DNA from: Candidatus Woesearchaeota archaeon
GTDB lineage: Archaea; Nanobdellota; Nanobdellia; SCGC-AAA011-G17; GW2011-AR17
Direction: 5' to 3'
NCBI GenBank assembly: GCA_017608525.1
Contig: JAFCFS010000002.1
Location: 1 to 40,669, forward strand
DNA: 40,669 nt
How positions within the stretch are numbered: the stretch's first letter is position 1; each line of letters starts with the position of its first letter. Under the pieces are notes generated by a model that saw only the letters and a program-made list of their open reading frames with translations, made no database searches and was not told the DNA's origin. The translations under genes were made by a program, and so were the position numbers. This document shows positions 31,686 through 36,919 of the stretch, piece after piece.

Positions 31686-31904
31686 TTATCTTCTGGCGAT
31701 CATTGTTCCTACAAAAGCTAACAAAATAAACACAATAAGGATAAACAAGAAAAAAATAATAAAGCCTTTTAAAAAATTTGATATTTTCTTCATTCTTTGT
31801 TTTTCAAATGGTGTCTTCAATTTTTTATCTACTCTAGCACCACATTCTGGACAAAAAATGTCATCTTCATCAAGTTTTGTTCCGCATGTAGGGCATATTT
31901 TCAT
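31686..31904 (-). CDS. Zinc-ribbon plus TM protein
   Basis: CPTCGTKLDEDDIFCPECGARV plus C-terminal TM. Confidence 0.7.
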   Translation of the reverse strand: MKICPTCGTKLDEDDIFCPECGARVDKKLKTPFEKQRMKKISNFLKGFIIFFLFILIVFILLAFVGTMIARR

Positions 31905-33676
31905 TTTGCCTTAACAGGAGCTCCACATTTAGTACAAAATTTAGCTCTTGGTTTAAGCTTACTCCCACATCTTGTGCAATATTTTGGTTTTTTCTTTTTC
32001 CCTTTCTTTAATTCCTTTGCCCTTTTTAACCTTTCAAGCAATGCCAAATACTCTTCATGTATTATCCTTTCATCAGCCTTCAATTTCAACTTTTTAATTA
32101 TTTTTTCTATTGGTGGCGGATTTTCTATGTCTATCTTTTTCTTTAATTTGTACAGTGCTTTAACAACTTTTCTTCTTTCAGCCTCTTCTTTCTCCCTTCT
32201 TTCTATTTCCCTTTTTTCCCTTTCAGCCATAAATTTTAAATAATATTTCCTTCCTTTTGTTGAGCCAAGATAAATCAGGATAACAACCAAAATAAAACAA
32301 CTTATTCCTGCATATACCCACCAACCAATGCTTCTTTCACATTTGTTTGTTTTTAGATTACAAACAAAAGTGTAGAATCTTGTATCAGGAGGGCACCCAC
32401 AATCAACACACGCATTTTGGCTTGTTTCACCTTCCGTACACAAACCATCTCCAGGATTAATTATAGTTATTAGCATTTCTTCTTTTTTTGGGTAATCAAC
32501 ACCTTCGATGTTCGGTGTAATGATTGCTACTAGCTTAACTTTACCAGCACTTTGCCCTTCTATATCAACCGTTACTGATTTTCTATGTTTAGCAGGTATT
32601 ACAATTTCTCCTCCAGTACATTGATTTCCAGTGCAGTCAGCCCCACCAACAACCCCACTTAAAGATGCACCAGTGTTTATATTTAGTGTTATCTTTGTTG
32701 GAACATCTATATCTAATGTATTGTCAGCGCTTATTGTTACGGATGTTTTTTCACCTACGGATATAAAATTTTTTTCACTACTTAGAATTGTGTTAACAGC
32801 TGTAGTGCATTTTTTATCTTTGCTACAATATCCCGACTTACATTGAAATGAACAGCCACAGGTTTCTCCGTCTTCCAAAACACTAACTCTTTCGCATTTT
32901 CCAGTGGCCAAACAAGCTTGGTAACCTTCTTCACAACCACAATGTCCGTTTTGGCAAAGCAAGTCACCGCAATATTTGCCCGGTCTAGTAGTTATTTTTT
33001 CTTCACCAACACATTTATGATTTTTACATATGCCTATTCTTTCAACAACTTTTTCCAAGGTGCTTCTGAAATCAGGTGAACATATAAATTCCCCGAGAGG
33101 TGTTTTTTTTGTTGTGCAATGCTCATCCTTTAAACATTCAACACACCGTCCATTAAAACAATATAAATCAGGACCACAGCCAGCATCTTGTGGGCAACTT
33201 GAACAATCTTCTCCAGGATCTTTTCTCCCGTTGCCACATAAAGGTGCGCATCCTCTTTCATCAGCTCTTGGATTTCCAGGAACACACTCTTCCGACATTC
33301 CACATGAACAATCATAACAATTCATACAATTTTCATCCTCGTCACATCTTCCATTACCACAATAAGTTTCACATCTTCCAAAATTACATCTTTCATAATC
33401 TTTGCAGGGACAATCTACCCAACAATTTCCACAATTTTCACCTTTGTCCTCTTCACAAACCCCATTTCCACATAGTTCAATACATTCACCATCAACACAT
33501 TCTCTATTCTCACCACAAATATCTGCAATTTCTTGTCTATTGCCGCAGCTATCAAACCACCAAGAATCACCATTAAAACATTCTTTATGATCATACAAAG
33601 TACATTCTTGAGCATATGAAAATGAAATTATAGCTAAAAAGAAAATTGCCAAAATTAAAATTCTTAAAATTTTCAT
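31901..33676 (-). CDS. Cys-rich repeat surface protein with TM and C-terminal zinc ribbon
   Basis: Signal peptide; repeats CGNGVCEEDKGENCGNCWVDC, CGNGRCDEDENCMNCYDC, CGNGRKDPGEDCSSC; TM; CTRCGSKLKPRAKFCTKCGAPV. Confidence 0.75.
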   Translation of the reverse strand: MKILRILILAIFFLAIISFSYAQECTLYDHKECFNGDSWWFDSCGNRQEIADICGENRECVDGECIELCGNGVCEEDKGENCGNCWVDCPCKDYERCNFGRCETYCGNGRCDEDENCMNCYDCSCGMSEECVPGNPRADERGCAPLCGNGRKDPGEDCSSCPQDAGCGPDLYCFNGRCVECLKDEHCTTKKTPLGEFICSPDFRSTLEKVVERIGICKNHKCVGEEKITTRPGKYCGDLLCQNGHCGCEEGYQACLATGKCERVSVLEDGETCGCSFQCKSGYCSKDKKCTTAVNTILSSEKNFISVGEKTSVTISADNTLDIDVPTKITLNINTGASLSGVVGGADCTGNQCTGGEIVIPAKHRKSVTVDIEGQSAGKVKLVAIITPNIEGVDYPKKEEMLITIINPGDGLCTEGETSQNACVDCGCPPDTRFYTFVCNLKTNKCERSIGWWVYAGISCFILVVILIYLGSTKGRKYYLKFMAEREKREIERREKEEAERRKVVKALYKLKKKIDIENPPPIEKIIKKLKLKADERIIHEEYLALLERLKRAKELKKGKKKKPKYCTRCGSKLKPRAKFCTKCGAPVKAK

Positions 33677-33769: not shown

Positions 33770-34786
33770 ATGGGCGTTAATATATCAGAATTATTGCCAA
33801 AGAAGGAGATTAAATTTGAAAATTTGGCAGGGAAAACGATTGCAATAGATTATTTTAATATGGCCTACCAATTTTTGAGTTCTATTAGGCAGAGAGACGG
33901 AACGCCTTTAATGGATAAAAAAGGAAACATAACTTCTGTGTATGTCGGTTTGTTTTCAAGATTAACAAGGCTAATAACTTATGGAATTAGATTATGTGTT
34001 GTTTTTGATGGTGTTCCTCCTAAATTGAAAGCAAAGGAACAAGAAGAAAGAAAATTAAGAAAAGATGAAGCAATGTTTAAACTTAAGGAAGCAATTGCAA
34101 GAGAAGATATAGAGGAGATGTATAAGTATTCAAAAAGAACCTCCTATTTAACAAAGGATATGATTGAAGATTCAAAATTATTGCTTAAAGCTATGGGCAT
34201 TCCAGTAGTACAAGCACCATCCGAAGCAGATGCGCAAATGGCCTATATGAATAAAAATGGAGATGTTTGGGGCTGTGCAACAAATGACATAGATCCTTTA
34301 CTCCATGGGGCACCGAGGTTGATAATGAATCTGACATTTGCACAAAAAAGGAAGCTTCCCTCTGGAAATTTTATATTTATCTATCCTAAAATTATAGAGT
34401 TGGAAAATGTTCTTCAGGAATTAAGTATTGATATTGATAGGCTAATTGCACTTGCCATACTTGTTGGAACAGATTACAATCCTGAAGGGGTTCCTGGGAT
34501 TGGTCCAAAAAGAGCGCTCGATATTGTAAAAAGGTATAAAAAAATCAAAACAATATTCGAGGAAATTAAGCCAGAATTTGATTGGGAAGAAATATTCGGA
34601 TTGTTTAAAAAAATGCCAGTTGAGAAAAAATACAGGCTTGAGTGGAAAGAACCAGACGAGGAAAAAATAAAAGAATTACTTGTGGAAAAGCATGATTTTT
34701 CTCCAGAGAGGGTAGAAAATACCTTAGAAAAATTAAAGAAGGAATTTGAAAAGAAAAAACAAACAGGTTTATCTAAATGGCTTTAA
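33770..34786 (+). CDS. fen: Flap endonuclease 1
   Basis: MGVNISELLPKKEI, VFDGVPPKLKAKE, APSEADAQMAYM, VGTDYNPEGVPGIGPKRAL; C-terminal PIP-like QTGLSKWL. Confidence 0.95.
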   Translation: MGVNISELLPKKEIKFENLAGKTIAIDYFNMAYQFLSSIRQRDGTPLMDKKGNITSVYVGLFSRLTRLITYGIRLCVVFDGVPPKLKAKEQEERKLRKDEAMFKLKEAIAREDIEEMYKYSKRTSYLTKDMIEDSKLLLKAMGIPVVQAPSEADAQMAYMNKNGDVWGCATNDIDPLLHGAPRLIMNLTFAQKRKLPSGNFIFIYPKIIELENVLQELSIDIDRLIALAILVGTDYNPEGVPGIGPKRALDIVKRYKKIKTIFEEIKPEFDWEEIFGLFKKMPVEKKYRLEWKEPDEEKIKELLVEKHDFSPERVENTLEKLKKEFEKKKQTGLSKWL

Positions 34787-34787
34787 G

Positions 34788-36377
34788 ATGAATTTAAAAG
34801 ATGCGCTGAAAGGAAAAATACCAGAAGAAAAAATAAAATACGTTCCTAGATCTTTTGACGTAATTGGGGACATAGCCATATTTCATTCTTTTCCAGAAGA
34901 GTTAAAAATTTATGAAAGATTGATAGGCGAAACACTTCTTAAGTTACACAAAAATGTAAAAACTGTTGCAAAGAAAATAAAAGAATATTCAGGAATTTAT
35001 AGAACGATGAAAATTAAAATAATAGCTGGAAAGAAAAAGAAAATAACATTGCATAAAGAAAACAGGATTGCTTTAAAAATTGATGTAGAAAAATGCTATT
35101 TTTCTCCAAGATTATCGACTGAGAGATTGAGGATTGCGAAATTAGTTAGGCCAGGAGAAGACGTTTTGGTTATGTTCTCAGGTGTGGCACCATACCCTCT
35201 CGTTATTTCTAAAAATTCAGAAGCAAGATTAATTTACGGCGTAGAAATTAATCCAGTAGCTCATAAGTACGCTCTTGAAAATCTGAAACTAAATAAAGCA
35301 AAAAATGTAATCTTGATTAAAGGAGATGTAAGAAAAGAGGTTCCAAAAATTATTGAAGAAAGAAAACCAATAATAGGATTTAAAGCACATTTTGAGGATA
35401 AGCAATTGAAAAATAGATTGGCTCTTAATCCGAAATTAATAGAGTTCTTTTTTTTCGATGGAGATCTAGAAAACAACTATGAAAAAATTGTAGAAAAAAT
35501 AAAGTATTTGAAAAAAAAGAAAATTTTAGTTATGTTGCATCAACCAAATTTTTACAAAGGAAAACTCGTCGATCCAAGCTGCAAAGAATTTATGGAAAAT
35601 ACTATAGAATGCTACAAAAAAATGTATCGTTTGGTAAAAAGGTATAATTTAATTGGTATGGTAGTGCATCCCTTTTTCTATAAAAGAAAAAAATTCGATA
35701 GAGAAGTTTTCCTTGAAACAATATCGAAATTAAAAAAGCAATGTAAGGGCATAGAGAAGAAAATATATTTGGAGAACTTGATTGATCATTGCGCAACGCC
35801 TGAGGAAATTCTTGATTTGTTAAACAGTTCCGGAATAGAAAATACATGCATTGATATTGTTCATGTGTATATACAAACAAAAAGCAATAAAAAATTGGTT
35901 GAGTATATTGAAAAGCTTAAGGGAAAAAACTGTTATTTCCATATAGGTGATACTTTGGGAAATAGAAGCATAAAAAATCACACAATCGAGCTTTTTAAAG
36001 GAAAAATTGATTTTGAGAGAATAAAAGATAAAATTAAAATTGGCGTTATAGAAGTTAAAAGTAAAAACGAAACGCTTGGGAAGGAGGCCATAAGAAGTTA
36101 TAAAAAATTTATGAAACTTATTACCGGCTTAGAAAAATTTGATAGGGTATTGATGCCTCTTCCAAAAAATGCTGAGAACTTCTTGGACCTTGCAATATTT
36201 TCAGTAAAGAAAAAAGGAACAATTCATTTTTACGATTTTCTTCATGAGTCAGAAATTCCAGATGAAGCAATTAAGAAGATTAAAAAACATTGCAAAGCAA
36301 AAATTTTGAACTGGGTAAGGTGTGGTCAATACTCCCCGAGAAAATATAGGGTATGCATAGATTTTCAACCTTTATAG
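34788..36377 (+). CDS. trm5: Trm5-type tRNA (guanine37-N1)-methyltransferase with inserted TIM-barrel domain
   Basis: RSFDVIGDIAIF, LLKLHKNVKTVAKK, CYFSPRLSTERLRIAK, VLVMFSGVAPYPL, YGVEINPVAHKYALENLKLNK ... KFDRVLMPLPKNAENFLDLA; insertion at 35352-36128. Start ATG 34788 preferred. Confidence 0.88.
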   Translation: MNLKDALKGKIPEEKIKYVPRSFDVIGDIAIFHSFPEELKIYERLIGETLLKLHKNVKTVAKKIKEYSGIYRTMKIKIIAGKKKKITLHKENRIALKIDVEKCYFSPRLSTERLRIAKLVRPGEDVLVMFSGVAPYPLVISKNSEARLIYGVEINPVAHKYALENLKLNKAKNVILIKGDVRKEVPKIIEERKPIIGFKAHFEDKQLKNRLALNPKLIEFFFFDGDLENNYEKIVEKIKYLKKKKILVMLHQPNFYKGKLVDPSCKEFMENTIECYKKMYRLVKRYNLIGMVVHPFFYKRKKFDREVFLETISKLKKQCKGIEKKIYLENLIDHCATPEEILDLLNSSGIENTCIDIVHVYIQTKSNKKLVEYIEKLKGKNCYFHIGDTLGNRSIKNHTIELFKGKIDFERIKDKIKIGVIEVKSKNETLGKEAIRSYKKFMKLITGLEKFDRVLMPLPKNAENFLDLAIFSVKKKGTIHFYDFLHESEIPDEAIKKIKKHCKAKILNWVRCGQYSPRKYRVCIDFQPL

Positions 36378-36919
36378 TACTTTGCAATTACATAGATTTC
36401 CTTGCTCCTCTTTTTTGAAGCAGAAGGTTTGTAGCATCTTACAAATCTGAACTTTTTTCTTATCTTTTCTAAAAATTCTTCAACCCCCTTTCCCTGAAAA
36501 ATTTTGCATACAAAGTTCCCACCCATTTTCAATTTTTCATCTGCAATACTAAGCGCTTTTTTACATAACTCAATACTTCTTTCTATATCTATTTCAGGAA
36601 TTCCGCTTATTTTTGGGGAAAGATCACTTAATATCGTATCAAATTTTCCCAAACCCTTCAATAATTCATCATTGAATACGCTCCCTTTTATGAATTTAAC
36701 ACCTTCTATTTTTTCAATTTCTTTTTCATCAATTCCAACAACATATGCTCCTAATTTTTTTGCAACCAAAAGCCAACCTCCAGGCCAACAACCCAAATCG
36801 AGAACTTTATATCCCTTTTTAATAATCTTAAATGCTTTATTTATTTGAAGAAGCTTAAATGCGCTTCTTGCTCTCAATCCAGACTTTTTTGCTGCAGAAG
36901 TATAGAAATCCTTTTTCAT
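36365..36919 (-). CDS. rlmE: RlmE/FtsJ/RrmJ-family rRNA 2'-O-methyltransferase
   Basis: RSAFKLLQINKAFKIIKKGYKVLDLGCWPGGW, ILSDLSPKISG, GGNFVCKIFQG. Confidence 0.9.
   Translation of the reverse strand: MKKDFYTSAAKKSGLRARSAFKLLQINKAFKIIKKGYKVLDLGCWPGGWLLVAKKLGAYVVGIDEKEIEKIEGVKFIKGSVFNDELLKGLGKFDTILSDLSPKISGIPEIDIERSIELCKKALSIADEKLKMGGNFVCKIFQGKGVEEFLEKIRKKFRFVRCYKPSASKKRSKEIYVIAKYYKG

Follow-up and report, generated by a model that had tools for sequence, protein, structure and literature searches.

The window, i.e. the whole stretch of 40,669 nucleotides analysed, from a Candidatus Woesearchaeota archaeon, hosts a trm5 gene whose product is divided into two parts by a long in-frame insert. 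The main features of the locus are the following:

33770..34786, + strand: upstream FEN1-like nuclease gene, separated from the ATG of Trm5 by a single base
34788..36377, + strand: trm5 with the barrel nested in it; 529 aa from an ATG start, uninterrupted by stops (Pfam and PDB matches)
34788..35351, + strand: N-terminal part of Trm5, residues 1-188, comprising a TYW2_N_2-like domain and the Rossmann methyltransferase as far as the GDVRKEVPK helix (its first half)
35352..36134, + strand: insert, residues 189-449; predicted (beta/alpha)8 barrel (core ~195-445) and short linkers (AlphaFold, Foldseek, ligands, Pfam)
36135..36374, + strand: C-terminal part of Trm5, residues 450-529, KFDRVLMPLP ... 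CGQYSPRKYRVCIDF
36156..36164, + strand: PLP motif, residues 457-459, aligned with N265-L-P of M. jannaschii Trm5b; the first proline is shared with P. abyssi Trm5a/Taw22

A sequence-only reading of the window had described one uninterrupted 529-aa ORF that starts and ends as Trm5. The description holds, as both flanks match Trm5 separately in Pfam and PDB searches, and the coordinates of the insert and the motifs quoted between the two Trm5 halves are all present in the sequence. The insertion site is located between GDV and FDRxMPLP. A separate D1 domain is absent from the N-terminal part.

Two other genes are found nearby. An RrmJ/FtsJ-like methyltransferase gene (36365-36919, minus strand) is convergent, its 3' end overlapping that of trm5 by 13 bases. 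The gene at 31901-33676 (minus strand) encodes a cysteine-rich protein of 591 aa, in which CGNGxCxxxE-type units are repeated, and which has a membrane segment and a zinc-ribbon-like C terminus.

The Trm5 host enzyme

The window protein matches PF02475 in two stretches (1.4e-44 in total; 152 bits against a cut-off of 28), and PF25133 over residues 3-83. The Trm5b structure 5yac aligns in two pieces, corresponding to residues 10-183 and 450-527; the Trm5a structures 5wt1 and 5hji, as well as 2yx1, similarly align in two pieces flanking residues ~190-449. Trm5 is also the nearest structure found by Foldseek with the full chain. In M. jannaschii Trm5 the catalytic positions are Y177, R145 and E185; the alignment to 2yx1 pairs them with Y104, R72 and E112, all three of which are near-invariant in alignment A4. 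The spacing from YFSPR to FDR is two-peaked, measuring 79-87 aa in insert-less and 296-340 aa in insert-bearing Trm5. No other convincing Trm5 is encoded by the 1.03-Mb genome that hosts the chimera.

Residue P457 occupies the position of N265 in M. jannaschii Trm5b. The equivalent residue is also a proline (P260) in P. abyssi Trm5a/Taw22 (PMC7761594), and MPLP is common in insert-less relatives, among which Aenigmarchaeota and Altiarchaeota. The replacement of NLP by PLP, initially regarded as part of the anomaly, is therefore an ordinary Trm5a feature, and cannot be ascribed to the insert, since insert-less relatives have it too. D1 is missing from most Trm5a proteins, and in N. equitans Trm5a is the only Trm5, and makes both m1G and imG2 (PMC7761594). 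The window protein scores 172 bits with the NCBIfam Taw22 equivalog (cut-off 550) and 231 bits with the Trm5b model (cut-off 600), but the subfamily is not decided by these values, because the insert lowers any full-length score. The term Trm5a/Taw22-type is used here for a resemblance, read from the critical residue and from motifs, of a protein that by overall score is nearer to Trm5b.

Fold, family and putative metal site of the insert

The insert had been proposed to be a metal-dependent TIM barrel of the Nfo/xylose-isomerase-like type. A barrel is found in the AlphaFold2 models of both the full chain (43 aligned sequences; pLDDT 95.5, pTM 0.88) and the insert alone (pLDDT 95.5, pTM 0.92). 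The eight predicted strands (residues 195-200, 217-220, 247-251, 290-293, 326-329, 352-356, 381-386, 418-421) alternate with helices. The predicted barrel is complete, beginning right after the Rossmann helix 181-191, and its final helix (432-445) is located just before the Rossmann strand 451-456. As modelled, the insert is a complete, independently folding (beta/alpha)8 barrel set between the third and the fourth Rossmann strands of Trm5. An intein was considered and rejected: the predicted fold is a TIM barrel and not a Hint domain, and the insert ends GLE/KFDR, whereas an intein would have a splice-junction Cys/Ser/Thr and a C-terminal His-Asn. An apparent intein was noticed elsewhere, after LLDE (CLTGKTTIDT...) in a HerA-like ATPase (L125:3708-6026, minus strand).

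The structures nearest to the insert in Foldseek are MJ1311 (3wqo, 1.8e-11), and then D-tagatose 3-epimerases, UlaE, APN1 and endonuclease IV. MJ1311 is also the best match in the PDB profile search made with alignment A2 (3.8e-9), while alignment A5 retrieved endonuclease 4 (5zhz, 3.7e-4), with the H-x-P, H, EN, CxDxxH and H motifs paired to those of endonuclease IV. PF01261 (AP_endonuc_2) matches 15 of 21 homologous inserts, the best at 2e-12, but not the insert of the window. The best NCBIfam match of the latter is CbiR (NF041277; 1.5e-5, 24.7 bits against a cut-off of 105). The nfo model matches 3/21 inserts, at best at 9.5e-4 and below cut-off, and does not match the window insert. Altogether, the weak family-model matches of the inserts are mostly to CbiR, Nfo and UvsE, all models of phosphodiester-cleaving enzymes; the epimerase IolO scored 0.059. 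The earlier proposal thus stands as to the superfamily: structure prediction, Foldseek, PF01261 and ligands place the barrel in the endonuclease IV/xylose-isomerase superfamily. By model cut-off, it is not a bona fide Nfo.

Nine residues are found at the strand ends of the barrel, all on the + strand of the window:

35382..35384, + strand: K199, end of strand 1, conserved in all inserts covering the position
35442..35444, + strand: E219, end of strand 2, conserved in all inserts covering the position
35538..35540, + strand: H251, putative metal ligand, equivalent to H69 of endonuclease IV
35667..35669, + strand: H294, putative metal ligand, equivalent to H109 of endonuclease IV
35772..35774, + strand: E329, putative metal ligand, equivalent to E145 of endonuclease IV
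35853..35864, + strand: D356 and H359 of the CIDxxH motif, putative metal ligands, equivalent to D179 and H182 of endonuclease IV
35940..35942, + strand: H385, putative metal ligand, equivalent to H216 of endonuclease IV
36051..36053, + strand: E422, putative metal ligand at the strand 8 end, equivalent to E261 of endonuclease IV

The E. coli endonuclease IV residues H69, H109, E145, D179, H182, H216 and E261 are the counterparts of the seven putative ligands; six of the seven correspondences are directly visible in the alignment to 5zhz, and E261/E422 was assigned by inspection. In an alignment of 26 inserts, 24 of them complete over these positions, the whole set from K199 to E422 is kept almost everywhere; the exceptions concern L078 (H251), L082 (H359) and L115 (most ligands). 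The third-metal pair D229/H231 of endonuclease IV is mostly not conserved, a histidine being found at the H231 position in 17/26 inserts, and an aspartate at the D229 position in few. To judge from these residues, the barrel resembles an endonuclease-IV-type site with fewer metals. The net charge of the inserts ranges from -12 to +25 and is usually lower than that of the Trm5 core, so that they are not strongly basic overall.

The barrel might be a small-molecule isomerase or epimerase, active on a sugar, a sugar phosphate or a keto-acid, which Trm5 either carries as a passenger or is coupled to in reaction, with no direct role on RNA. The top Foldseek matches (3wqo, 4xsl, 4pfh, UlaE) are D-tagatose 3-epimerase-like folds, the E329/D356/H385/E422-type site is one common to epimerases of the superfamily, and the third-metal pair is mostly missing. 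However, H251 and H294, the counterparts of which bind the first metal in endonuclease IV and are outside the epimerase metal site, are kept in nearly all copies, and IolO is the single epimerase among the weak sequence matches. An isomerase is a conceivable though rather doubtful alternative.

Distribution and evolution of the insert

Among 60 related genomes, 54 gave Trm5 matches, and the insert was found only in that of the window. When the insert was used to search 104 genomes of the order, three further Trm5 came to light (L022-L024), each interrupted at the identical position by a homologous insert. The fusion occurs at the same site in 15 of the 383 genomes searched class-wide, and additional insert-bearing Trm5 were found in a phylum-wide sample. 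A scan of GTDB contigs for FDR[IV]xMPLP, which detects only Trm5 copies bearing this motif, yielded 20 confirmed fusion loci (L063-L082); their carriers are nearly all named Woesearchaeota, Nanoarchaeota or Nanoarchaeia. Two contigs, titled Methanosarcinales (L074, JAFCBX010000099.1) and Desulfobulbaceae (L124, CAMYOP010000008.1), carry DPANN-like Trm5 and are probably misbinned. Empty sites read GDVxxxxPKL-KKFDRI, and the insert is accordingly clean, with one exact insertion site. The joining of two genes by misassembly, indicated at the outset as a possible artefact, is ruled out by the recurrence of this in-frame arrangement in numerous independent MAGs, and by the fusion of locus L071, included within a single contig of 1,301,350 bases.

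The earlier remark that no Trm5 with this architecture was known to have been described agrees with a literature search, in which no description of a Trm5 with a nested barrel was found among the papers covered; Trm5 goes unmentioned in the main text of a survey of archaeal fusions. Both domains come from known families, and it is their nesting, with its behaviour, that appears to be undescribed.

A FEN1-like gene is located directly upstream of trm5 in 21/59 insert-less and 5/22 insert-bearing loci. The fusion can therefore occupy an ordinary trm5 locus. Neighbour genes specific to insert-bearing loci were looked for, and none was found. Taw1 is present in the window genome, and was detected in 13/15 insert-bearing and 26/36 other genomes; the lack of a clear difference speaks against a link of the barrel with wyosine synthesis. 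Nfo-like matches, found in 10/15 insert-bearing and 26/36 other genomes, similarly reveal no link that would make the barrel a replacement for a missing Nfo. No hint of the substrate came from Taw1 or Nfo-like co-occurrence or from gene neighbours.

Median identity is 54-55% for the Trm5 core and about 29% for the insert, and by sequence comparison the barrel thus evolves faster than its host. In a tree of 100 Trm5 cores, presence and absence of the insert change 13 times, and at least four changes are forced by well supported branches. L072, with the insert, and L120, lacking it, are close sisters (support 100/98). The trees of core and insert also disagree. By core, L068 is the partner of L046 (99/99), whereas its insert shares 75% identity with that of L042 and only 31% with that of L046; L067 and L049 share 66-67% identity in the core and only 26% in the insert. 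When core-defined pairs were imposed on the insert tree, the AU test rejected them (p 0.007 and 0.0007); it likewise rejected insert-defined groups imposed on the core tree (p 0.0135 and 0.002), while the remaining groups were not rejected (p 0.129, 0.401, 0.06). These p-values are weakened by the choice of groups after the trees were seen.

Free-standing barrel genes with conserved ligand motifs are found in two genomes (L160:1498-2274 and L161:1492-2223, both on the minus strand). They begin and end at the insert boundaries, nest among the fused copies (p-AU 0.03), and both genomes also carry a separate Trm5. A MazG-like gene adjoins the L161 barrel. In the Trm5 of the L160 genome (L173:844-2115, minus strand) an unrelated segment of ~100-130 aa is found at the same insertion point, and GDV is seemingly altered. 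At the opposite end, barrel-sized inserts devoid of ligands are hosted by otherwise intact Trm5 (L115:3501-5255 and L162:706-2310). These dead barrels imply that the activity of the barrel is dispensable in some lineages.

Dead barrels, along with the partial ligand loss in L078 and L082, would fit a mainly structural or regulatory domain, serving docking, stability or substrate specificity, in which the metal residues are relics. Such a role is unlikely, as ligands are fixed in most copies despite the low median identity of the inserts, and both free-standing copies retain the ligand set. Less probable still is that the barrel is a mobile passenger, tolerated or selfish, spreading among trm5 genes by recombination in the conserved flanks at one permissive site: the exact insertion site, the insert-less close relatives, the 13 changes on the host tree, the core/insert conflict and the nesting of free-standing copies all fit, but no splicing, transposase or homing module was recognised, no viral relative was found in IMG/VR, the tested groups were picked post hoc, and old duplications and losses could mimic part of the conflict.

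The evolution of the barrel is partly uncoupled from that of the host, as seen from its patchy presence, the conflicting trees, and the free-standing and decayed copies. The barrel hence gives the impression of a detachable unit, which has apparently been acquired, lost, exchanged for another version, set free and at times inactivated independently of the host.

Proposed function and comparison with known systems

The reading preferred here, to which we assign a probability of about 0.5, is that of a Trm5a/Taw22-type G37 methyltransferase carrying an active, metal-dependent barrel of the phosphoesterase type. The Trm5 part would methylate G37, next to the anticodon (m1G37), and perhaps also make imG2, as Taw22 does. 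The barrel would hydrolyse phosphoesters; this type of chemistry is suggested by the conservation of both first-site endonuclease IV histidines besides the E/D/H/E site. The substrate may be RNA, a tRNA-derived molecule or a nucleotide phosphoester, Trm5 plausibly acting as the carrier of the barrel. A second activity on tRNA or nucleotides, suggested at the outset, is likewise putative. Against a phosphoesterase stand the ranking of epimerase-like structures above endonuclease IV in Foldseek, the mostly unconserved D229/H231 pair, the missing PF01261 match of the window insert, inserts that are not strongly basic, and ligand-less barrels in at least two Trm5 (L115, L162).

In class I methyltransferases helix C ends, and strand 4 starts, opposite to the SAM side, and the termini of a TIM barrel are opposite to its catalytic mouth. 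Judging from fold topology, the ends of the barrel would attach to the Rossmann side away from SAM and G37. With such opposed attachments the two active sites probably face apart, and channelling within one monomer is unlikely; they may serve different parts of one substrate, or different substrates. A more specific view would have the barrel as a nuclease or phosphodiesterase working on tRNAs held by Trm5, one protein both marking G37 and cutting or repairing the tRNA, and the module being exchanged between DPANN trm5 genes; this is improbable.

Trm5 is a highly conserved archaeal and eukaryotic enzyme that guards the reading frame. The repeated occupation of one of its loops by a metal-enzyme domain is a natural experiment in enzyme nesting, in which an active site is kept while the rest of the barrel diverges, with apparent swapping between lineages, and dead and free-standing versions. 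The nested barrel points to a candidate tRNA-linked activity in DPANN archaea.

Among known systems, archaeal Trm5a/Taw22 (P. abyssi 5wt1, 5hji) are alike in the two-part match over the whole methyltransferase and in the proline at the N265 position. The PYPLVI and HxYDFxHESE motifs of 5wt1 are also found in the window protein, which, as most Trm5a, has no D1, and, as in N. equitans, is the single Trm5 of its genome. Trm5a proteins lack the ~260-aa barrel hosted by the window protein between Rossmann strands 3 and 4, and overall the latter scores nearer to Trm5b (5yac) than to Trm5a. Endonuclease IV (Nfo) is a TIM barrel with the same residues as the insert at H69, H109, E145, D179, H182, H216 and E261. 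The inserts differ in that D229 and, in part, H231 are not conserved, fall under the nfo cut-off, share ~12-16% identity with Nfo in Foldseek, and are located, unlike Nfo, inside a methyltransferase. The D-tagatose 3-epimerase-like MJ1311 (3wqo), first in both the Foldseek and the A2 profile searches, is free-standing, 18-19% identical to the insert, and catalogued as an uncharacterized protein. The cobamide phosphodiesterase CbiR, the best NCBIfam match of the window insert, though far under the cut-off, is a published case of a superfamily member that cuts a non-DNA phosphodiester (PMC7733943).
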